Positions 10,095 to 63,273 of a stretch of 64,000 nucleotides of DNA are shown here, piece after piece. The DNA lies in contig JANTQA010000072.1 in the NCBI GenBank assembly GCA_027625915.1, positions 558,001 through 622,000 on the forward strand. Reading direction: 5' to 3'. Every line of letters starts with the position of its first letter. Within the stretch, counting starts at the first letter, position 1. The translations under genes were made by a program, and so were the position numbers. The stretch comes from Anaeramoeba flamelloides (Eukaryota > Metamonada > Anaeramoebidae). A model generated the notes under the pieces. The model was not told the origin of the DNA. It saw only the letters and a program-made list of their open reading frames with translations, and made no database searches.

Positions 10095-12105
10095 ATGAAT
10101 GTTTTCAAAACAAAACCAAAAACCTACCAACAAGACTTAACTTTGTCGACTGGAGGACTAATTGACGATTTTGTTAAAGAGTTGTTAATTTCAATACCCT
10201 CACAAGATGTTCAAGTACAACAATATATGCTTAGCTCACTTCAAGATATCTGTAAACATCAAACACAGCTGGTTCTATCTTCACTTTTGGATTATTTGCT
10301 AAGAGCAGAGCTTCCAAAGGATCTCAAGCCAAGACTTATTTCAACATTTTCTATTATGGTTGAGCAGAACATTGATGAAATTTCGTCTGGGATCGGAATC
10401 AAGATAATTCAATTTTGTATTAACAAGATTGTGAGTGAAAAAGTAATTGTTTTCTTCTTATCCTTTCCATCATATTTAAAGCAACCTTTCCAACACATTT
10501 AAAACAAGCTCACCAACAATAAAAAAAACCCTTCTTATTTTACTTTCCAATCTTCTTTCAATCAACCTTTCCAACCACAAAAAAAACAAAAACCCCACTT
10601 CTTATCCTTTCCAACGATCTTTTTATCAACATATTTAAAAACAACCATCTCAAAAACACAAAAAAATAATACTTTTAAAAACACAAAAGGTACCAAAAAA
10701 ATTAGAAACAACGCCAACGTGTAAAATAATCATTGCACTTGGGAAGAAATTTGCAAGGCCAATTCAGGAAACGTTAATTGTGCGTATCCCGATCCGTGAA
10801 ATACCAAATTTCCAATTACTTCATCTCTTAGGAGAATTTGTTGTCCACAATCCACTTCAAACAATCCCGCTCATCGGAGATTTTCTCAAGCGGATTATCT
10901 TATTGTTTCCCAAAATTAAAAAGGATTACCAAAGGGTTGTTGTTGCGAGGGTCATTGGCCAGCTGGCAGACGGTTTACATCACTATTTGATAAACAAAGA
11001 CTTGGCAGAAGATCGCTCTATTACGGAGCTAAGTTATCAGTCTGATTTCCAGTCTTCGTGTGACCTGTTAATGAGCGGCTATATCTCAAGAAAGAATTCG
11101 AAATTAAGGTGTGAGTCTGCAAGTGCGTTAGGATCCATCACATTAATTCTCAACAAAATGATGTTAGAAAAGAATTTGAATAAAATTATTCAGAACATTA
11201 TCAAACTCTTGGTCTCAGATCGGAAAAACGGATACAGCACAAAGAGGTACTCGGAATCTTTAAATAAGATTCTTGAAGCCATTTTCGCATGTAAGGCGAA
11301 ATTAAATAATGACTTATTTAATGTCATTTTTAAAACCTTACATAGCTTCCTGTTAACGGGCGCGCCCCCCGACGCATCCATTAACCCCGACGGCTATTCG
11401 GCTTACAAAAGCATCTTGGAGTGCATCACGTTTTTAGCCAAGATCAATATAAATTCCATTTTGAATTTGGCCTTTAACAAATTGGAAGACAAATCCATTG
11501 GCTCCAAGGTTGGCGCAATCTTAATTTTAAAGCACATTGTCACTCATTGCGACAAGAACATTTCAACCTCGAAACAATTGGTGGTGACCACCTGTAAAAA
11601 GGCATGCGAAAATGTACAGCAACCGTTAAGCTTCCAATATTCGCTCATAGATTTGATCGTCACAATGGGCAGCAATGATTATTTGCAATTGAGTGGAGGC
11701 AATGTTCTGATCGACTTTTTAATGAAGGGAGCTGCCACATCTGCAAAGGTGATCAACAAATACAAAATGGAGCAACAAAAGACAAAAAAAAAAAAACGAA
11801 ATAAAAAAAACGATCCCAATCAGCCAGCTGAGGTTTCTCCTTTACAATTTAAAAATTATTGTGGGAGAGCTCTGACTTTGATGTCGCGTTCAATTTCTGA
11901 GGTTGAAGATATACTGTGGCCCAATATTTTGGAATTTATGGCAAAGCAACAATATTCTGAGGCCTTACCGATTATTTTTAAATCGAGCAAATTTTTAATT
12001 GACAAAAAAATTGAAAATTTTGAAAAAGAAGAAGAGGAAGAAAAGGACAAAGAAAAAGAAAATAAAAAAGATAACGGAAATGAAGAGGAAGAAAACAATC
12101 AAAAA

Positions 12106-12137
<32 letters not shown>

Positions 12138-15100
12138 GAAGAAAAAAAAAAGCAAAATGAAGAGTTATTTAATAGACTTCAAAAGCTTAGTGAATTTGCC
12201 AACACCGCAATTTATTTTAATTCGAATTTTATCATATGTCAGTGCCAATTGTGTTGATTGCATTGAAGGATTAAATGTATTGAAATCCATTTCAATAATA
12301 TTACATAAATCGATCGTAGATCTTTGTAATCAAGAAATCCCAAAATTAATTAATTATCATAACCAAAATAAGTATGATTTAAATCTCAGTGAATGGATGA
12401 CTTTAATTGAGCAATTTTTTTCAAAATTAATTATTCAAATAGATGAGAATCAATATACCCAAAAATTATGCACAACATTACGAGAATTTTATATTTATTG
12501 TGAAAACAGAGAAGAATGGAAGTTAAAACAATCGATAACAAGATTATTTGGCCTCGCGCTTCAGCATTCAATTACTAAAAATTTAATTTCAGAATTTTTA
12601 TACTTTATATATACTAATCAAATTCCAGAAATCGGACACGACCACAGTGCATTTGCTAAATGTTGCGGATATATCAGTGCAAAGCATCTATCTAAGGTAC
12701 ATGAAACTTTATTACAAATAGCACGCGACGAGGTATTAAAAAAGGGCTCTCGACTCATTAAAAGTAAAAAAAAATTAAGGGGCATTGATCAGACTGGTGT
12801 CCGAGGGATGGTTTTAATTTCCCTGGGCGAGGTGGCAAGAAACGGGCAAGTAAGATCTGTTTTTTCAAATTACAAACTTGAAATATTGCAATTAATAATG
12901 CCATTAATTAAGGGAACTCGGGATTTTGTCTCACAGATACGAATAATAAATTTTTTAAATAATTTAGCCATCGCCTTTAAGCAGTTAAACAATGATACTA
13001 ATTATAAATTTGAAGAAAGAAATGATTACATTTTATTGCTAATAAATTATTTAAATGAAAATAACATTAAAAAAAATATCGAAAATTCCATTAATATGAT
13101 CAATACCAAATATTATGGCAATGGCAACAATTCAAAAAATAACAATAATAACGATAATAATGATGATCAATATGGCTATGAAAACGAAATTAATTCAGTA
13201 AATCAATTTAAATTGAATTGTGTGATTGCAATCAATTCTTTAATTCAATGTGTACCACCGTTAGGTAAAACCGAAAGGAAAGCTTTGATAAATAAATTAA
13301 TTGAATTATGGGATATCGGCACCACTCTTGAACTAACTAACCAAGTATTTAGTAAAAAATTAAGGAAAATTAAAATACAGCAGGCACAAGAAAAGCAAGA
13401 GTTATCTTCAAATAAAAATTTGCAAAATATCGATAATATAAATAATATTAATATTGATACCACCACCACCAACATCACGACCAGCAGCAGCAGCAATAAT
13501 AATGGTAGTACCAATTCTAATAATCAAAAAGACGAAGTCAATACATTAATTAATAATATTAATTCGATATTTATTTCAATTTTAGAACAGGAAACCAAAA
13601 TAAGAATGATCAAAAACTTTTTCAATTTAATAAAGCACCATTTCTTATCTTCCATTACTCTTCATAGGAAAAGAAGTCTAAATTGCCTATTAAAGATAAT
13701 ATTGGAATATCAAAATATTAAATTCCAACGGAGCGAATTACGCAAATTAAACCCCAAATTTCAATCCAAAAAATTTAATGGTATTGGATTGATCATGGGA
13801 TCAGTCCTATCAAAATTATTTGATCCTGTACATGAAATACGTAACTTGTCCTTTGAAATCTTTTGGAATTTATTTTATCTTGATTTCTTAACAAGAAAAA
13901 ATTCTACAAAAACCAAACAATTATTCGAAAAGGACGAACCACCAGAGCCATTACAAACCTTGAAAAAATTAAAAGAGCACTTACATTTAGACTTTGAGCA
14001 AGATAAAAAATCAATCAAGCATATTTGTAAATCAATTGCGAAATTCTTATCCATTTTATTATCACCAGATGAATTTATCGATTGTATGCAAACCTTAATT
14101 GCTGTGGGAATTTCTGATAAACACCAATCAAGCTCTTATTGCGCGTCGCTAATATTAAACGAATCTTTATTAGCGAAGGGGAAAGAGAAAATGGGAAACA
14201 ACGTTCTTGACTTGTTTGAGAGGCTATTGAAAAAGTTTTCAGATGTTGAGCATTTTGGTTCGAAAAAAATTATTTTATTAACAGTACAGACAATGGCCTC
14301 ATATAACCAAGCGCCAATATATAGATTGCTATTATCCAACAAGCCACCGTTAACAAAAACTTGCACAGACTTCATTATTTCAATCATTTCAAACCAAGAT
14401 TTGCTTCCAAATTTCTTTTTACAAATCACGAATATAATTAATAATTCGGAGCCAATCGAAACTATAAATCAAGAAGATCAGAAGAAATCTTCAAAAAAAA
14501 ACAAAACAAAAAAATCTTCAAATAATAATAATAATAATAGTAGTAACATTGAAAAGCAAATTTTAACAACCCGTGCGTCGGTTTTACCACAGTCTTCCAT
14601 TTGCGCCTTAAAAATACTAATTAGTAAAAGTGATGGCGAATGGCTAAATAAAAATTATGCACGTTGTTTATGTTCAATATTATTTAGAATTGGCCTATGC
14701 TCAAAATTGGTGGAAGAAAATAAATTAATGGGATTGGCGTCGCCAATTAATCAAGCAATTGAAACGCTAAAGCAATTTGCACAGTCTACAGAAGATACAG
14801 AAATAATTAGAGATTTAAATTTAAATTTAACAAATGAAGGCAAGCATTTGATTGAATTGCACAATCATAAAAAAAAAATTATTCAAGATAATGAGAATAA
14901 GAATGAGGATGAGAACGAAAATGAAGAAAAAGATGATGAGGACGAGGACGAGGACGAGAATATTCAAATATATGAGCCCGAGGAATTTAAATTCGGGTTA
15001 ACGGATGGATGGAAATTATTGAATTCAGATTTTTTTGAAAGAGGAATAGCAATAATTATCTCTTCAATTGCCAATCAAAGGCCAGAGAAATTAATTAAAA

Positions 15101-16056
15101 TATGTGAATTTGTTTATCCGCATTTAACCAAAACACAAGAAATCCACAGGAGAATCGCAACCGCAATCTTTGCAGAATTGGTCAAGCATATGGGCAATAA
15201 TTTAAAACTGTTGAGTAATATTTTAACCTGCTTGTATACGTGCCAATCCGATCCATGCATTAAGGTATCCACGGAATCGCTCAGGGGGCTGGGCCACATT
15301 TGCTTTGTCGAAAACAAGGAAGCCCTCGATAAATTCGTCGGATCGATCTTCGGTGTCCTAATGCCAACTTTAGAGCATAAAAAGCCCCTGATCGTATTTG
15401 AGGCAATGACCAATATCAAAAGATTATTGAATGTGCTGTCCGTGGATTTGGTGTCTTCCCATTTGATCTCAATGTGCATGAGAGTTTCGAATATCTTTAT
15501 CAGCCAAGATCCGAAAATGAGAATCGCCTCTTTGGAACTGTTTGCTTCATTGGCCAGATACGCCAAGGACAGCGAAAAAGAACAGCTCGCACTCGCAGAG
15601 CAATTCCATCGAAATTTTGTTTTGTTAACATTATTGCTAAACGACATAGAACCTACTGTTCAAAAGGCAGCCAAATACGCTCTCAAAAAATTCGCCTTCA
15701 CAACAAATAAGAAATCTTTCATAGATTTCGTGAAAACAGATATTTTCCAAATAAACAGAAATGTTGACTATGAACTCATGCTCGATAAATTAACTTTGAA
15801 TTCAATCAACTCATTCCCCAACAAAATTTCGGCTAATTATGTCACTATATTGGATTATTTCACAGATAATAATGTACAGTTTAGAGCCAGCTCATCTTTA
15901 TTATTTGTTTTCTTTTTAAGAAATTTACCTAAGGATTTGAAAAAGCAAATAAATACAGGGCAAATTTCAGAAAAATTAATTAATTTATTAAAAGATAAAG
16001 AAAAAAAAGTTAAAATTTTTACTTCAAGAGCAATGTCATTATTATATGATTGGTAA
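10095..16056 (+). CDS. MROH1-like HEAT-repeat protein (two exons)
   Basis: Joined from exon 1 (10095-10442 or 10095-10430) and exon 2 (10690-16056), giving about 1,900 residues; human MROH1 is about 1,640. Alpha-helical HEAT-like repeats run throughout. Recognisable MROH1 landmarks are an N-terminal block on repeat-rich helices, the stretch Ile-Leu-Trp-Pro-Asn-Ile-Leu-Glu-Phe, the later Asn-Leu-Pro-Thr-Pro before a helical block, and a conserved C-terminal array starting near the Arg-Pro-Glu-Lys-Leu segment at about 15080. Extra length comes from Lys/Glu-rich inserts (12020-12155), Asn/Thr/Ser-rich inserts (13120-13165 and 13430-13520) and an Asp/Glu run (14884-14966). MROH1 relatives are linked to lysosome and late-endosome biology in animals and Dictyostelium; that role here is inferred. 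No membrane segment or catalytic motif is visible. Confidence 0.85.
10443..10689 (+). other. Intron in the MROH1-like gene
   Basis: Starts GTAATT and ends AAAAG, phase 0, 247 nt. It has in-frame stops and is rich in C/T/A with CTTTCC-type words, unlike the flanking codons. Downstream codons resume MROH1-like protein at 10690 (Val-Pro-Lys-Lys-Leu). An alternative donor GTGAGT at 10431 is also phase 0 and nearer the usual consensus; it would remove four residues (Val-Ser-Glu-Lys). Confidence 0.75.
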
Positions 16057-48825: not shown

Positions 48826-50166
48826 ATGGGTAAAGAAAAACAACACATTAATTTAGTTGTCATTGGACATGTTGATGCTGGTAAATCCACCACCACCGGA
48901 CATTTAATTTACAAATGTGGCGGTATTGATAAAAGAACCATTGCCAAATACGAAAAAGAAGCCGACCAAATGGGAAAAGGATCTTTCAAATACGCTTGGG
49001 TATTAGATAAACTCAAGGCCGAAAGAGAAAGAGGTATCACAATTGATATTGCTCTCTGGAAATTCGAAACCTCCAAATTCTACTTCACAATCATTGATGC
49101 TCCAGGTCATAAAGATTTTATCAAAAACATGATCACTGGTACCTCCCAAGCCGATGTTGCCTTATTGGTCATTGACGGAACCCAAGGTGGTTTTGAAACA
49201 GGTATCTCCAAAGGAGGACAAACAAGGGAACATGCACTTCTTGCATCCACCCTTGGTGTCAGACAAATGATCGTTCTTGTCAACAAGATGGATGATAAAT
49301 CTGTCCAATACTCTCAAAAGAGATACGAAGAAATCAAAAAGGAAATCCACAGATACTTGAAAAGACTTGGATACAACCCAAAGAAAGTTCCAGTTGTCCC
49401 AATCTCCGGTTTCCAAGGTGATAACATGACCACAAAATCCACAAACATGAAATGGTGGAAAGGACCAACACTCTTAGAAATCCTCGATACTGTCATCCCA
49501 CCAAAAAGACCAACTGACAAACCACTCAGACTCCCATTACAAGACGTCTACAAAATCTCCGGTATTGGTACAGTCCCAGTCGGTAGAGTTGAAACAGGTA
49601 TCCTCAGACCAGGTATGGTTGTTACCTTTGCTCCAGTCAACATCACCACTGAAGTCAAATCCGTCGAAATGCATCACGAAACCCTTAGCGAAGCCTTCCC
49701 AGGTGACAATGTTGGTTTCAATGTAAAAAACATTTCCGTTAAGGACATCAGAAGAGGAATGGTCGCCGGTGACTCCAAAAACGATCCACCAGCAGCCGTC
49801 CAAAACTTCACCGCTCAAGTCATCGTCATGAACCACCCAGGTCAAATCAAGGTCAACTACACACCAGTTCTTGATTGTCATACCGCTCATATTGCCTGTA
49901 AATTCACCGCTCTCGTCAAAAAGATGGACAAAAGATCAGGTGAAGTCCTCGACGAAAAACCACAATTCATCAAAAACGGAGACTCCGCTATCGTCACACT
50001 TGAACCAACCAAACCAATGTGTGTTGAAGCTTATACTTCATACCCACCTCTTGGAAGATTCGCTGTCAGAGATATGAGACAAACAGTCGCCGTCGGTGTC
50101 ATCAAGGCCATCGAAAGAAAACAAGTTTCCGGAAAGGTCACCAAATCTGCCTCCAAAAAGAAATAA
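48826..50166 (+). CDS. Translation elongation factor 1-alpha
   Basis: 446 residues, ATG at 48826, TAA at 50164-50166, no coding intron. A GTPase that delivers aminoacyl-tRNA to the ribosome. The G domain has Gly-His-Val-Asp-Ala-Gly-Lys-Ser (14-21), Asp-Ala-Pro-Gly-His (91-95) and Asn-Lys-Met-Asp (153-156). Domains II and III follow, with Gly-Arg-Val-Glu-Thr-Gly and the C-terminal Gly-Arg-Phe-Ala-Val-Arg-Asp. Length and motifs are normal. The C-terminus ends in a Ser-Lys-rich tail. Codon choice differs sharply from every neighbouring gene: many codons end in C and the protein has no low-complexity insertions, as expected for a very highly expressed gene. A candidate AATAAA lies at 50333-50338. 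Confidence 0.98.
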
Positions 50167-54260: not shown

Positions 54261-55592
54261 TAATGTGTTTGTGTTTAATTGGATGCCAATTTCTAAATAT
54301 TGATAAAATTTTTTATTTATTTTAAAATTGATTATTAAATGATATTAAACGACTTTCAAAAATAAAATTCAAAATCAAAAAGATGGTGAAAAAAAAAAAA
54401 ACATAAAAAGTTCAAACAAATTGAGCATTTCCAACATTTTGTGAATGTATATTTTTGAAATAAACCAGCCACAACTTTATGATTTAATGTTATTCGAAAA
54501 ATTCGCTACAACTATAACATAATCAATTCACATACTTTTAAACTTTCTAAGAAAATTTCAAAACCTGACAAAAGGCTATATTAGAAGAGGTAAATCGAAA
54601 ACTCTGTAAAAATCCTTCATGTGAGAACATTTAAAAATCAGGAGTTGCTCTGGATTTAAAATAGAAATAACCCCTATCTTCTAAATAGTAATAATCAAAA
54701 AATGGGATTTAAACAAACGATTCCTGTCACTCCAATTTCAACTACCTTGATTCTCAATTAGTTGCTTCTACTGGAAAAAAATTTGTTATACTGATAAATT
54801 CAAATAAATATCAGAATATTTTTACTTCATTATCCATTGTATGAATTTTTTTACACAAGCTTTGAAGAAAGCATTTTATTCTTTTTAATGTTAAAAAACC
54901 ATGTAAAATTGGTTGTACTTCAAAAGGCACTTTCTCTCGAGTTGTTTTGAAAGTTGAGATATGAGATTACAAAATGGGAAATTGAACTAAAAATTATATT
55001 AAACATATTTGAATTTATCAGTATTAAAAAGATTTTGAACAAGTGATGTTAATTACTCTTTTATGACCTACCAAAAAATACTTTGACCTGCACCGTTAAA
55101 TACCGACAAAAATAAATTGTTTTTTGGCAATTTTGCAACTTGGCTCAAATACTTTTTTAAATTTTGGCGACTTATTCTTGAAAATGAAATTAAGAACAAT
55201 TTTTATATTTTGTTTGTTTCTGAAGAGTTTTGTCAAGTATTTATAAAAGGACTTCAAATATTGAAATTGACCATTTTAAGTTCCACTTTAGGAACTTCAA
55301 GTCGGAATTATTTTTCCAACTTCTATGTTTCTGGAAAGGAAAAAATTATTATAAAGTTAAAATTACAAGAATTTATCATTTTACCTTTTTTTTTCAAATA
55401 TTTTGCAATTTTTTTTATTGGTACAGCTTTACAATAAAAAATTCAAAAAACGCACCACCAATAAATAATTGGGAAACACTCTCGTTGTCGAAAAATCAAA
55501 AAATTATTCTTCTTCTTAATTGATTTTCCAAATTTTTTGTTTTTTTTTCACAAAAAAAAAAAAAAACATACAAAACACCACCATTTTTGATT

Positions 55593-58500
55593 ATGAATAA
55601 ACAATTAACGATCCAACATTACAATTTGTTATCGAAAGAAATTGGAGAGGAGATATTGTACAAATTAGAATGCCGCCGATCACAAAAAACGTATCTTTTA
55701 CTTTTAACGCCCTCAAGGCTATCAGTAATCCAGCAGAGTAAGAACAGGGGCAACCTCTCGTTTAAAAGATCCAAGCACCTAATCAGCCAAAAGCAGTTTT
55801 TGTCAAATTGCCACCATTTATATGATCTCTCGTATATCGAGTCCACGAGCATTTTAGACATCTCGTTCCATTTTCGAACGGGCACTGTACGAGTCGAAAC
55901 CAACCAGTCAGACAAACTCATTGAGCTTGTCTACCAGGTGTTTCGATCCATTACCTATGGCTCCAACGCAAGTAAAAAAAAAGGATCTGGGCCAATACTT
56001 GAGGTGCTTGTGCAACCAGAAAAAAGGCAGCTCAGGATCAAGAAACTGCTCTCCAAAATCGAGCACAGAACAGGCCATTTGAGGAAACACGGGCATGGGT
56101 TTCTGAACAGTTACAAGGCGTGGTGTACGTTTTTCCATTGCATGGCGAACCAGAAATTTGTCAAGGGCATCGAAAGGCGATTTCAGCAGACGAAATCGAA
56201 CAAGAGAAGGAAGACAATCAAAATATGCCCCAAGGAGATTTATGATTTTTATAATCCCAAATTACAAAAACAACAGCAGCAGCAGCAACAGGCAAACTTC
56301 AAACCGATCTTTAACACACTCAAGCATAACACTTGGTTTGAAAATTTAGTTATTAAAAACATGAGCAATAACAAAGAAATAATTCCCTTGCTTTCACAGG
56401 TCCTGCAATATAACCAATCGATCAAATCGTTAATTTTGAACAACACATACGCGTCAGGAGAATTATTAATAGAGTTTGGCAATAAAATTGTAGACAATGC
56501 CAATTCTTCATTAACAGGTATTGAATTGGTTAACATTAAAAATATCAGCGAAAGTGGCTTGCTAAGTATGCTGGGGCAAATTGGAAGCTCACGATTTTCA
56601 ATTAGAAAAAAAAAAAAAATTGGCAAATATTTTAAAGTAATAAGATTGAATTCGATTGGTTTCCATGGCAAAATTGGAAACGTTTTCCAAGTATTAATGA
56701 AACCTGCATTTTCCAAAATAAATGTTCTTGATTTAAGTGGGAACAGATTTGGACATTTCTGTTGTCAAGCGTTATTGAAATGGATTGAAAAAAATAATTC
56801 TCCTCAGAAAAATGATAAAAAAGTAAAAAAAGAAAACAATAATAACATTGTCAAAAACAACAATATCAACAATAGTACCACCAACACCACCAATAGCGAC
56901 GACGACGACAACAACAAAAACAACAAAAATAACACCACCACCAATACCAACAACAACACCAATACCAATAATAAGGAAGAAAACACAGAAAAAGAAAATA
57001 ATAAAATAATTAAATTAAAATCTTTAATCTTAAAAGATTGTAATTTAATAAAAATTGATTTACTAATTAAGGTCTTATTTAATAATACTCTTCACTGTTT
57101 ACAACATTTAGATTTATCTGGTAATAAAATCACTTTTAAAGATAGTAAATTAATTGGCAAATTTATTGAAAACAGTAAACACATGAATGAATTAAATTTA
57201 GAAAATTGTAAATTATCTTTAGATTCTTTTAAAAACATCATTTTATCAATTAAAAATGAGAACAATTCTTTGAAATCTTTAAATTTGAACTTAAGTAAAA
57301 ATGATTTAGGGCCTGAAGGTTGCCATTTAATAGTATTAAATTTATATGACTCTGAAATCTTAAAATCATTAAAATTAAATGAAGTGAAATTCACTGATTA
57401 TTCAATGGGGTTAATTATTGCAAGTTTTAAAAATAATAGTAGTTTATTAAATTTATCTTTAGCGCGAAACATTCAAGCAAATGAAGAAAATGGAATAACC
57501 ATTAAGGAAATTTGCTTACTATTAGAAAATAAAAGGTCTAATTTAACAAGTTTAGATATTTCTGGCGATAAAAATAAATATTCTATTGGGTCAAATTTAT
57601 CAAAAATATTTAATTCCCTATTAAAAAATGATAAATTGACATCCTTAAATATTTCAAACAATCATTTGAAAACCCCTGATATACAATTACTTTACAATAT
57701 TTTGAAAGAAAACAAAACAATTCGGAAATTAAATTTTTCTGGCAACTTAATCACAAATACTTCAATCGAATATTTTGCTAATACACTAATGATAAACAAT
57801 ACTTTAATTAAAATTTATGATCTAATTGAAGATTTCAAATCACAAAACCCTCAAAAAAAAAATGAAAAAAAAAATAATTTGATTTTCAAATTAATTGAAA
57901 AAAAAACAAGAGAGAATAAATTCCTTTTTTATTCAAAAAAGAAGATCAATAAAAAAAAAAAAAAGAAAATTAAATCTCTCAAATTAAAAAAAAAATTTTT
58001 AAAATCTTCTGATTATTCTTCAAATCAATCCGAATCTGAAACATCTGAATCAAATATATTTAATGAAAATCAAAATATTTTTATTAATAAAATAAACAAT
58101 AACGTGGATAATACTGAGAACAATAATGAGAACAATAATACTGATGATGACACTGATACTGATACGGATACCGACAACAACAACAACAACAACAATAACA
58201 CAGCCAGTAACAACAAAGTAAAGGTTAAAAAAAAACAAAATCTAAAAATTAATTTACATAATATTATTACTAATAATGATGATGATGAAAATCAAAAGTT
58301 AAAAAAGAATAAGAGTGATGATATCAATTTTCAAAGGATTAATAGGAAAAAAAAAATTAGAAGTAACTCTGTTTTGATATTATCTGGCGACGAAGATTAC
58401 ACTGCCAATAATATGAACAAAAGTAAATTTAAATATAAAAAATTTGAATCAAAAACACCAAGAATTCGAACAATAAGAAAAAAACTCGGCAAAAAACAAC

Positions 58501-59078
58501 ATAAAACCAGATATGGGTTTACAAAAAAAAACAAAAAGAAACATAAAAAAAAAAAAAAAGAAACACAAAAAAAAGCAAGCTATTTGAATATTTGGCAAGA
58601 AATCAAAGATCAAGAAGAAAAAAAATTTTTAGAAAATCAAAGAAATCAACGAAATAATATTAACAATATTGAAACAATTGAAATGAATGAAGAACTAATT
58701 AAGGCAATCAAAAAAAAACATTTGGAAAAAATTAAAAAATTATTTCAAAAAAAGAAGGCCAAAATCAATATGATCGATCCAAAAGATAAAAGTTCTATTT
58801 TGCATTATGTTTGTCTATGGGGCAACCCAGAAATACTATCCTTTCTATTAAGTATCGAAGGAGCCAAGGAATTATTGAATTTAAAAGATAAAATTGGCAG
58901 GACACCTTTGCATCGGCTGATGCAAAAGGGGATTAATATGGACTGTGTGCAATTATTGAGTGATTATGATGTAGACTGGAATGTTGTTGATGCCTCTGGT
59001 TCGAACCCTTTGCAGACTTTAGTTTATTCAGTGCAGGGGAAAACAAAATATTTAAATTCTATTGAACATAATTTTGAA

Positions 59079-59117
<39 letters not shown>

Positions 59118-61172
59118 AATAGAAATTATAATAATAATTATAACGATAATGAAATGCAAAAAAATGATCACACAATACATCCTGAAAATAAAAATATTGT
59201 TAATCAGGGAAAAAACAGAAAAATTAACTCTGAAAATAAAGATATTAGCAATAGTAACATGAGTAAGTTTAGTATTATTAGAAGTAGCAGCTACAGCGGC
59301 AGCGGCAGCAGTGGTTTAAGCATCAACCGTAGCAATAGTAGCAATAACAACATTAACAACAACAAGAACAACAACAAGAACAACAATTCTGAAAATAATT
59401 CCGAAATAATTAGTCAATACTTGAAGAGATTGAAAATACTCGACTTTTTATTGTCGCAAGAATGTAATTATAACTCAATGGACCTGAAGGGCAACACAGT
59501 ATTACACGTTGCAGCATCAAAGGGGCTATTTAAAATAGTATCCAGGCTGCTTGAAATACCGGATTGTAATATTAATACACATGACTCAAAGGGTCTAACA
59601 CCATTACACAAGGCCAGTCGAAATGGCTATTCCCAAATAGTCAAAATATTAATTGAGAAAGGTGCCAATATTTCTCTATTAGATCACAACAAAAAATCTG
59701 CACTAGATATGGCAAAAATGTATCAACAAAATAAATGTGTTGAAATTTTAAAAGAATTTATCAATAAAAATAAAAATTTAATTAATACCACCAATGATAA
59801 AAAGAATGACGATAATATCAATAATAACGATGATGAAAGCAACATAACAAATCTAGTCGACATTAGAATACCATTCCAAATACAAGGAATTGTTGAAGGG
59901 TTCCCAAAATCAAAAACATTTAAAATATGTGTTTTAGGAGCAGAAAAATCTGGCAAGACAAAATTAGTTGATCGGTTTATATATAGAAATTATTACCCAC
60001 AATATTTGCAGGGCATTGAGAACGTTCATCATAAATTTATTATTGTCGAAGGAAGAGAAATGTTATTGCATATATATGATGTTTCCGGTGAACAAATTTA
60101 TGAACTATTTTTAGAAAAATGGATCAACGAATGTGATGGCTTTATTCTAAATTATTCAATTGACCAAGCAGAGCAATGTGTCGATAGCCTGGAAACAAAA
60201 TATATCCAAAAAATTGTCGACTTAAAAAAGAAGCAAAATTATAACGAAATACCATTTGTCATCACTTCGAGCAAAAATGATTTGAAAAATAGCTGCCAAC
60301 AAAATGAACAATTATTCAAGCAAAGGGCCAAAACGCTCTCTGAAAAATTATCTTGTAGCTTTGTTGAAACCTCGGCTAAAAATAATATGAATATTAATAC
60401 GACATTCGTTTCAATTGTTAAGCAAATGTACAATTTATTAAATAGAGACGAAATAATTAAAAAAGAAGAAAAGGAAAAAAGACAAGCGGAGGAAAGGGAA
60501 AACCAATTGAAAGTGAAAAAAAGAGAAGCTAGGAAAATACAAAGAGAAAATAAAAAAAATAACGAAGACTCCAATGAATTAGAAAAATCTAAAGTCCATT
60601 TCACCAAGCTCTTTAAAAATAAAAAACGCAATAAAAGCAATAATAATAAGTATAATAATAATCAGAACAACAACAACACCAAAAACAGCAGCAGCAGCAA
60701 CAACAACAGCAGCAGTAACAACAGCAATACTAAAAATAACAAAACGAATAACGATGAAGAAAAATTTGATTCACAAAAAATCATTCCTTTTAAAGATATT
60801 ATCGAAGACGAAATTTTGTTTATGATTTTTGAACAATATTTGAAAGATCAGTATGCTGAGGAAAATTTACTCTTTTATAAGGAAGTCAAAAAATTTCAAA
60901 AAATCCATCCCGAGGAAACAGGGTTAATTGCCTATTATGCAAAACGCATCTTTAATAATTACGTTTCTAACACTTCAGAATTTGAAGTCAATATCGAAGG
61001 CAATATTAGAAAAGATATTTCTTTAAAAATTGAGAAAACGTCTTTCCATCCTGATATGTTTAATAATGCTTTGAAATCAGTTGTAGCTATTTTGTCGACA
61101 GATAGTTATAATGGGTTTATCGAAAGCAAATATTATGCAAAATTATTAAAATTATTATCACAAGATAATTAA
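55593..61172 (+). CDS. CARMIL-like PH/LRR - ankyrin - Ras-like GTPase - RGS fusion protein
   Basis: One exon, 1,859 residues from ATG at 55593 to TAA. In order: a PH-like N-terminus (about 10-125) resembling the CARMIL PH domain; leucine-rich repeats (about 236-740) of the long RNase-inhibitor/CARMIL type; a Lys/Asn/Asp-rich linker; ankyrin repeats (about 1056-1390) split by an Asn/Ser-rich insert; a Ras-like GTPase (about 1443-1615); and a C-terminal RGS domain (about 1732-1855). The P-loop is Gly-Ala-Glu-Lys-Ser-Gly-Lys-Thr (1449-1456); G3 is Asp-Val-Ser-Gly-Glu-Gln (from 1496), G4 Ser-Lys-Asn-Asp, G5 Thr-Ser-Ala-Lys. The Ras Gly12 and Gln61 positions are both Glu, so intrinsic and GAP-assisted hydrolysis is probably altered. 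The RGS keeps Ala-Glu-Glu-Asn-Leu-Leu-Phe-Tyr. RGS domains normally speed hydrolysis by heterotrimeric G-alpha. CARMIL's C-terminal capping-protein region was not seen. A link between G-protein signals and actin is inferred. Confidence 0.85.
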
Positions 61173-63273
61173 TTTGAAAAAAATTTAATCATTTATAATA
61201 TATTATTTTGTTATATTACACCAGAATATTAATGTATTTTTTTATTTTTATTTTTTTATTTTTTATTTTGATTTTTATCTTTTAGATTATTTATTATATA
61301 CGATTATTTATTATATTATATTATTTACTATTATTATTATTAACAAAATTAGAATTAATAATATTTTATCCACATAATCAATTTACAATAATTAAATTAT
61401 TCAATTATTTTTTTTTTTTAATTTGTTGAAATTATTTTTCAGTTATTTGCCTTATACATTTTAAACACTACTGATAGATCCTTGAAACGCTATAATGGTT
61501 ATATTAGAATTAAAATACAAAGATTTTGACACGGATAAAACTGTAAAAATATTAACAATAATACAATTTCATTCAAATTGGAAATAATTTTGATTTTTCA
61601 AAAATATTTTTTTTTTCTTTTTGAGTTTTTTTTTTGATTCCATTTTTTTTAATGATTTAATTGTTTTTGTTGAATCCAAAACATTTTTTTGAAGAATTGA
61701 TATTTGGTTAAAGTCGAGTTGCTCATTTAAAAAGATCAACTTAGATAAAATTGGTTTTTGGTATCTTAGATTTGATCAATAAATATTTGTTTATAGAAAT
61801 TTCAACAAATATATCAAAAAAATTTTTTAAATATGTTCGCTTCAGAATTTTTGACACCACAGATAGGATAATTTTTTTAAACTGGAAAAATAAAAAGAAT
61901 CTACCAATTCCATACTTTGCCAGGGAGGATAATAAATAGTTTTTTTCGAAATTACCCTTTTAATTTTCAAAATTTCTTTATTAATTTGGGTACATCTCCA
62001 AAACTATTAATGACTAAAACTAAAAAAACAAATAAAGTTAATTAAAAATTTTTTGATAATGATAAAAATCATTTTTTTTATTTATTTTATTTGTAACTTA
62101 AAAAAAAAAATTACACTCAAATTTCAACTTGAAAATTTTTTTAATTTAATAAAATACTTCAAAGAATAAACTTTCTTATTGATCACAAAAAAAAAAAAAA
62201 AGTAAAAACAAAAAAATATATTATATTCTGTTGAAAAAAAATATATAGTTATCAGATTCGTTAATTAAACGTTATATGTGGACTGGGTTGAAATTTTCAC
62301 TTCATTTGTTAATTTATTTTCTCTATCCCTGTTAAAGTAATAAATATTATGATAGAACGAGCGTATGTTCTAAAGAAGTAATAATTAATTCTTTTAAAAT
62401 GAAATTGATTTAAGGTAAGAACTTATTACCCAAATGCAGCATAATTTGAATTTATTTCCACAATATAACAATTTAAAATAAAAAAAAACAAAAAAATATT
62501 TTCCCAAGGATAAAAAGTATCAAAAGTTATTATAGTTTGATTCAATATTATTTGCTTTTTTCAGAGAAAAAAATATATAAATTTTTTACTACTATTATTT
62601 TTACCAAAATTAACCATTCGAATTTAAGAGAATAGGAACTCTTATTTATTTTTTTAAGGAGTAAAGTATGATATTTAATATTAAAATATACAATTAAACC
62701 TGATAAAAAACACCATTTATCAAATTTAGAGAAATAAGTGATTATGTTTAAAATATTTCATCTTATTCAATTAAATTTGCAGTAAAAAGATATATGTTCT
62801 TTTTGTTTGGATTTGTCGATGAAAAATAAAAATAAAAAAATTCATAACATTTTTATTTTTTGAAATAATACTTTTTAGTAATTTCAGAGAGTTAGGATGA
62901 AAAATTCATTTGGGAACTTTAATATTATTTTCTAAATACAAAAAAAAAAAAATACATCAAATTTTGAACCCTTGAAGATTAAAAAAAATTGAGCTTATAT
63001 TGTATTTATAAATATTTATTAAATTTCTTGAAATTTAAAAGATTGAGTAATATCCTTTTTCAATATCAAGATTCTAAACTTTGAACTGTTATAATTAGAA
63101 TTAGATATTTGGAAATATATGTTATTTTTTATTTAATAGAATTATTAATTTGAATTGAATTTTTTTTTTTTTTTAAAAAATTTAAAAAATTGAGAAAACA
63201 TGATACATCTATTGACAATTTTAACCCTTTGTATTATTAATAGCCCACTTTTTTTTTTAAAGTGGATTCATAA
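61173..63273. other. Gene-free interval with partial M3 match
   Basis: A/T-rich 3' flank. At about 61535-61640 a stretch matches the M3 family (AACAATAATACA..., then TTGGAAATAATTTTGATTTT); its ends are unclear. A 62-codon frame at 61751-61939 is not protein-like enough to call. Confidence 0.5.

Follow-up and report, generated by a model that had tools for sequence, protein, structure and literature searches.

What does a protein do that carries a Ras-like GTPase domain and an RGS domain in a single chain, and does the Ras-like domain of such a protein still work as a cycling switch? These questions are raised by a gene of Anaeramoeba flamelloides located in a stretch of 64,000 nucleotides (assembly GCA_027625915.1, contig JANTQA010000072.1, positions 558,001 to 622,000 of the forward strand), which we refer to as the window and whose numbering we use throughout; all window features given below are on the plus strand. 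An open frame at 55524-61172 spans 1,882 codons in the standard code, and its in-frame ATG at 55593 starts a coding frame that runs to a TAA (55593..61172) and specifies 1,859 residues. From the N to the C terminus the predicted protein consists of a CARMIL-like front end with a PH-like domain and leucine-rich repeats (LRRs), ankyrin repeats, a Ras-like domain, and an RGS domain. In our best explanation, to which we give about an even chance, the gene, one member of a lineage-expanded family, would encode a large intracellular, cortex-anchored RGS GTPase-activating protein (GAP) for Gα with a Ras-like module that does not cycle.

Domain architecture and selective constraint

Three of the four modules are recognized by Pfam with scores above the curated cut-offs. 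Ank_2 matches with an e value of 2.7e-41, Ras (PF00071) with 3.7e-25 (88.8 bits vs. a cut-off of 21.6) at residues 1444-1613, and RGS (PF00615) with 1.1e-19 (71.4 bits vs. a cut-off of 23.9) at residues 1733-1851. The ankyrin repeats form a first array (58698..59072, approximately residues 1036-1160) and a second array (59415..59792, approximately residues 1275-1400) split by an Asn/Ser-rich insert (59073..59402), and are followed by the Ras-like domain (59922..60431), a linker of 119 residues modeled as a charged helix and a disordered segment (60432..60788), and the RGS domain (60789..61145). LRR models remain below the Pfam cut-off (LRR_6, 0.0042), and Carm_PH, COR, kinase, and Ras-binding domains are absent among the Pfam families with e values of 1 or less. 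Together with the profile and structure comparisons of the front end described later, these matches bear out the four modules, their order, and the uninterrupted frame that the initial annotation had read from the sequence; the Ras and RGS assignments, on which that annotation hinged, are both significant.

A duplicate of the gene on contig C64 (L014) encodes a protein with 87% amino-acid identity to the window protein, and blastn similarity between the two extends over 55335..61614 within the compared stretch. The ratio of nonsynonymous to synonymous substitution rates (dN/dS) between the duplicates is 0.165 over 1,831 codons. By part, it is 0.150 in the PH-like domain, 0.098 and 0.128 in the two LRR blocks, 0.030 and 0.060 in the two ankyrin arrays, 0.158 in the Ras-like domain, 0.075 in the RGS domain, 0.18 in the helical linker of the front end, and 0.13-0.35 in the low-complexity linkers, with 0.35 in the Lys-rich linker between the LRRs and the ankyrin repeats (57888..58697). 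By this comparison the window gene is constrained, and a chance frame or a pseudogene was rejected because dN/dS, at 0.03-0.35, is well below 1 in all domains and linkers.

A family of fused Ras-like and RGS domains

To place the gene among its relatives, we searched the A. flamelloides genome (254 Mb, 76 contigs). The search for RGS domains scored 150 of 472 candidates, and the search with the Ras-like domain of the window protein as a query gave 151 matches, with 150 of 508 candidates scored. For the pairing of the two domains we used the 34 Ras rows among the 151 matches that lie in frames of at least 600 aa (33 loci, one of them split) and 31 of the 150 RGS rows picked by eye as partners, and computed strand, frame length, phase, and distance. 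A Ras-like domain followed by an RGS domain in one frame was found at 31 loci or more; two of the 33 loci paired (C64:2559777 and C13:7962924) have no RGS partner. The pairing distances of 46-545 aa start where the Ras match ends, and in insert-bearing members that match covers only the first half of the domain; in the alignment of 19 members described below, the spacer has 45-150 residues.

We then fetched 20 loci, which were selected for long frames rather than at random. Pfam identified Ank, Ras, and RGS in 18 of them, whereas RGS is combined with different domains in L023 and L026; besides the window gene, only the fetched loci were assessed for ankyrin content, and 12 of the 31 Ras-RGS loci are not among these. 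Seven of the 18 also have the CARMIL-like front end in the same frame, so that with the window gene eight members have the same module order. Taken together, the low dN/dS relative to the duplicate and the same one-frame order at seven other loci indicate that the architecture is not due to chance. At 15 of the 31 loci, the 15 kb upstream contain a same-strand match to the N-terminal module, where approximately 0.001 per locus would be expected by chance, and in seven of these 15 the module occupies a frame of its own, as would be expected of separate exons. Half of the N-terminal module matches (18 of 36) are located away from Ras-RGS loci, suggesting that the front module, or at least its LRRs, also occurs independently of them; these 18 N-terminal or first-LRR matches, seven of which are in frames of 381 to 901 aa, perhaps represent simpler relatives of the front end.

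Could the window gene nevertheless be two adjacent genes, one CARMIL-like with ankyrin repeats and one Ras-RGS, read as one frame, or a pseudogene? A near relative at C24:6335012-6340106 has its front end in a frame of 965 aa and its Ras-RGS part in another of 856 aa, a split that may reflect an intron, a broken frame, or the presence of two genes. However, all modules are kept in a single frame in eight members including the window gene, and no part of the latter is free of constraint, which makes this explanation very improbable. We infer from the sequence that the gene is transcribed as one mRNA.

Pairwise distances of the Ras-like and RGS domains among the 19 members are strongly correlated (Mantel r 0.91, p 0.0001), which argues that the two domains are inherited as a unit. 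In a phylogenetic tree, the 19 fused Ras domains fall on one side of a branch from ten stand-alone Ras domains with a support of 100/100, in a comparison that has long branches and in which the stand-alone sequences are taken from the matches of the Ras search rather than sampled from all Ras proteins. Among viral contigs, 18 stretches matched a pattern and none is a relative.

The CARMIL-like front end

We aligned the eight family members over residues 1-777 of the window protein and used the alignment for profile searches and structure prediction. The profile retrieved CARMIL as the top match among PDB sequences (7.1e-39 and 7e-38), followed by ribonuclease inhibitor (1.1e-31). The AlphaFold2 model of the region, built from eight sequences (mean predicted local distance difference test score [pLDDT] 73.1), starts with a PH-like fold, from which a helical linker leads to a horseshoe of LRRs. 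In secondary structure the PH-like domain (55647..55955, approximately residues 19-121) has seven strands and a C-terminal helix. The mostly helical linker (56001..56282, approximately residues 137-230), seen in both alignment and model, leads to the first LRR block (56289..56798, approximately residues 233-402), which is supported by the family alignment and the profile. An Asn/Thr low-complexity insert with pLDDT below 50 (56802..57002, approximately residues 404-470) separates it from the second block (57012..57887, approximately residues 474-765), which model, profile, and Foldseek support.

In a Foldseek search with this model, the top five matches are CARMIL chains (9.6e-22 to 1.9e-19), and NLRP14 follows (3.6e-14). 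The query TM-scores against CARMIL are moderate (0.52-0.54) and the root-mean-square deviations are large (8.2-8.8 Å), suggesting that the LRR arcs of the two proteins differ in shape. The best CARMIL match covers 811 alignment columns, a length that would include the PH part. At the opening of the first LRR block, all eight aligned members share the stretch N-T-W-F, which resembles N-Q-W-F of CARMIL. With CARMIL as the top match of both the profile and the model, we conclude from sequence and model that the front end is CARMIL-like.

The PH part by itself is not secured by sequence, and the PH-like fold is a feature of the model. A profile of residues 1-286 matched CARMIL only near the first LRR (0.0011), with tropomodulin chimeras next (0.023), and when compared with the single Carm_PH locus of the genome the probability was 7%. 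That locus, on C51 (1.9e-4, above the cut-off), is the only place that the Carm_PH search of the genome returned, and it is not the window gene. The CARMIL likeness that the initial annotation saw in the front end is supported by profile and Foldseek; the PH part finds no match in Pfam Carm_PH.

The likeness to CARMIL (LRRC16A; PDB 4k17 and 9ec0) consists of a PH-like domain (as modeled), a helical linker, and a long LRR of the ribonuclease-inhibitor type. Unlike CARMIL, the window protein has ankyrin, Ras-like, and RGS parts C-terminal of the LRR, and it has neither a Pfam Carm_PH match nor a capping-protein motif above chance: the best site in the window protein agrees at three of seven positions, the mean for shuffled sequence is 3.1, and the eight members tested are all at the shuffled level. 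On this ground, a plain CARMIL identity was rejected, and the link to actin proposed in the initial annotation is weak.

The RGS domain and its candidate targets

In the RGS domain, the Gα contact residues Glu87, Asn88, Asn128, and Asp163, numbered as in RGS4, are present in the window gene and in all 19 members. The nearest PDB sequence is RGS12 (1.6e-11). Candidate targets are numerous, with 124 stretches of Gα in the genome (121 of 889 candidates scored), many of them partial or with stops. With these Gα stretches and the RGS domains found, the heterotrimeric G-protein set of this genome is very large.

RGS domains also occur here in other contexts. At L023:3092-6835 (C57), a frame of 1,247 aa combines a pyridine nucleotide-disulphide oxidoreductase (2e-38) with a C-terminal RGS domain (4.9e-20) and has weak flavodoxin and rubredoxin-like matches, so that a redox enzyme is joined to RGS; at L026:4103-7699 (C24), RGS is followed by DUF547 in one frame.

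The Ras-like domain

We predicted the structure of residues 1436-1859 with AlphaFold2 from 18 sequences (mean pLDDT 76.9, predicted template modeling score 0.57). The Ras fold is recovered, although switch I is modeled with low certainty, and the RGS bundle is predicted confidently; a long charged helix and a disordered stretch lie between them. Foldseek returned K-Ras as the top match of the Ras-like domain (2.6e-12). The Pfam Roc model also exceeds its cut-off on this domain (35.4 bits vs. 27), with Ras scoring higher (88.8).

Motif residues were counted in an alignment of 19 sequences, comprising the window protein and 18 fetched loci; L023 and L026, which have RGS and no Ras domain, were excluded. 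A further locus, L016, was left out of alignment A1; its Ras domain is aligned with little certainty in the second half, and this affects the counts for Asn116 and Asp119. Residues are numbered as in Ras, in which Gly12, Thr35, Gln61, and Asn116 are catalytic and switch residues. Gly12 and Gln61 are missing from all 19 members, position 61 being Asp in 11, Glu in four, and Lys in four. Thr35 is present in ten of the 19 and in none of the eight members of the branch that includes the window gene, and Asn116 is present in four of the 19. The window gene has Glu, Gly, Glu, and Ser at positions 12, 35, 61, and 116, respectively. For comparison, ten Ras proteins that stand alone in this genome, counted by eye, all have Gly12, Thr35, and Asn116, and six have Gln61. 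From these substitutions, the Ras-like domain is predicted to hydrolyze GTP poorly although it may bind nucleotide, and the window's branch to be devoid of the usual nucleotide sensing.

The domain varies in length from 168 to 628 residues across the 19 members and has 170 in the window gene. In L009, L010, L016, and others it is interrupted by inserts that can reach several hundred residues and that mostly immediately precede the strand leading to the NKxD motif.

Proposed function and its alternatives

In the explanation that we prefer, the CARMIL-like PH-LRR front end and the ankyrin repeats would bind partners and hold the protein at the cortex or membrane. The C-terminal RGS domain would accelerate GTP hydrolysis on at least one of the many Gα subunits of the host, and faster hydrolysis would end the signal locally. 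The Ras-like domain would be a hydrolysis-poor latched module or a pseudo-GTPase rather than an ordinary cycling switch, and may serve as a binding or regulatory platform beside the RGS domain.

Several observations weigh against this explanation. Gly10, Gly15, Lys16, Ser/Thr17, Tyr32, Asp57, Gly60, Lys117, and Lys147 of the Ras-like domain are present in all 19 members (as is Ser145), Asp119 in 18 of 19, and Thr35 in ten of the 11 members that do not belong to the window's branch, and Gln61 is missing even in four of the ten stand-alone Ras proteins. The Ras-like domain is itself under selection, as its dN/dS indicates, may well bind GTP, and could act as a switch of an unusual kind. In the RGS domain, position 167, a further contact that is Arg in RGS4, is Gly in seven and Asp in one of the eight members of the window's branch (Gly in the window gene itself) and Lys in the other 11; with this residue changed, affinity for Gα or the choice of Gα may differ.

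The initial annotation envisaged a working internal switch, with the Ras-like domain relaying heterotrimeric G-protein input from the RGS domain to a CARMIL-like actin scaffold. The invariant P-loop nucleotide-binding residues, Asp57, Gly60, and Lys117, the Thr35 of ten members, and the capping protein alpha encoded in the genome (six stretches, two loci) agree with such a relay, but the losses of Gly12 and Gln61 throughout the family and of Thr35 in the window's branch, as well as the shuffled-level capping-protein motif, render it doubtful, and we regard it as unlikely.

RGS domains stabilize the switch Gln and Thr of Gα. The RGS domain might act in cis as a GAP on the adjoining Ras-like domain and supply what that domain is missing, and the fixed order, joint inheritance, and spacer length of the two domains are compatible with such an arrangement. 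Because the Ras-like domain has no Gln61, and in the window's branch no Thr35, for an RGS domain to stabilize, these losses count against action in cis, as do the many Gα genes available as ordinary targets. An increase in LRRK2 GTPase activity by RGS2 has been reported, but two reviews that relate this also state that direct action of RGS2 on the Roc domain is unproven (PMC6337361, PMC6320773). Overall, we consider cis-acting GAP activity highly unlikely. The broader proposal that the RGS domain regulates the Ras-like domain of its own chain, or that the state of the Ras-like domain is determined by Gα binding to the RGS domain, is distinctly unlikely. If it were true, one polypeptide would combine a catalytically incomplete small GTPase with its helper, or would directly connect heterotrimeric G-protein signaling with that of small GTPases, and communication between the two domains would be a natural case in which to ask whether RGS acts on Ras-like or Roc-like GTPases, as debated for RGS2 and LRRK2. 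In this genome, a small-GTPase domain of unusual type is fused to a heterotrimeric G-protein off-switch at 31 or more loci, alongside many Gα genes.

Relationship to known multidomain proteins

Roco proteins (LRRK1, LRRK2, and the Dictyostelium Rocos) likewise have LRRs and a Ras-like domain in one chain, and LRRK1 and LRRK2 also carry ankyrin repeats, as described in a review (PMC6337361). Unlike Rocos, the window protein has the order LRR, Ank, Ras-like, and terminal RGS, and neither COR nor kinase. Membership in the Roco family was rejected, as no COR domain at an e value of 1 or less lies behind the Ras-like domain and the RGS domain comes after 119 residues.

RGS12 and RGS14 resemble the window protein in that an RGS domain is part of a multidomain chain that touches Ras signaling. 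RGS14 has tandem Ras-binding domains (PMC2655719), whereas the window chain holds a Ras-like domain itself and no Ras-binding domain. The RGS-RhoGEF proteins of Naegleria and Entamoeba are also protist multidomain regulators with RGS, and that of Naegleria has putative N-terminal LRRs (PMC9283941); these have DH-PH exchange-factor domains in place of the ankyrin repeats and Ras-like domain. The same source describes 79 further RGS proteins in Naegleria fowleri besides the seven-transmembrane ones.

In the literature searched, which lies outside most subscription papers and bioRxiv, we found no description of a CARMIL-like front end combined with Ank, Ras-like, and RGS, no paper that has "CARMIL" together with "RGS domain," and no matching paper on Ras-RGS in metamonads. 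In the searched main text of an Anaeramoeba study (PMC11550330), the terms RGS, CARMIL, and heterotrimeric do not appear.

Genome setting and neighboring genes

The GC content of the window ranges from 18% to 35% in 2-kb steps; A+T-rich genomes have been reported for Anaeramoebae (PMC11550330). That study also describes the A. flamelloides assembly as almost 6x the size of that of A. ignava and as having more than 1,100 ribosomal protein genes. In our searches, ribosomal protein S23 is found in 26 stretches of the genome that pair as 13 two-part loci. Elsewhere in the window, a frame of 1,758 codons (10780-16056) encodes MROH2B-like HEAT repeats (2.7e-43) with a weak CH-like match, and elongation factor 1-alpha is encoded in a single frame at 48826-50166.

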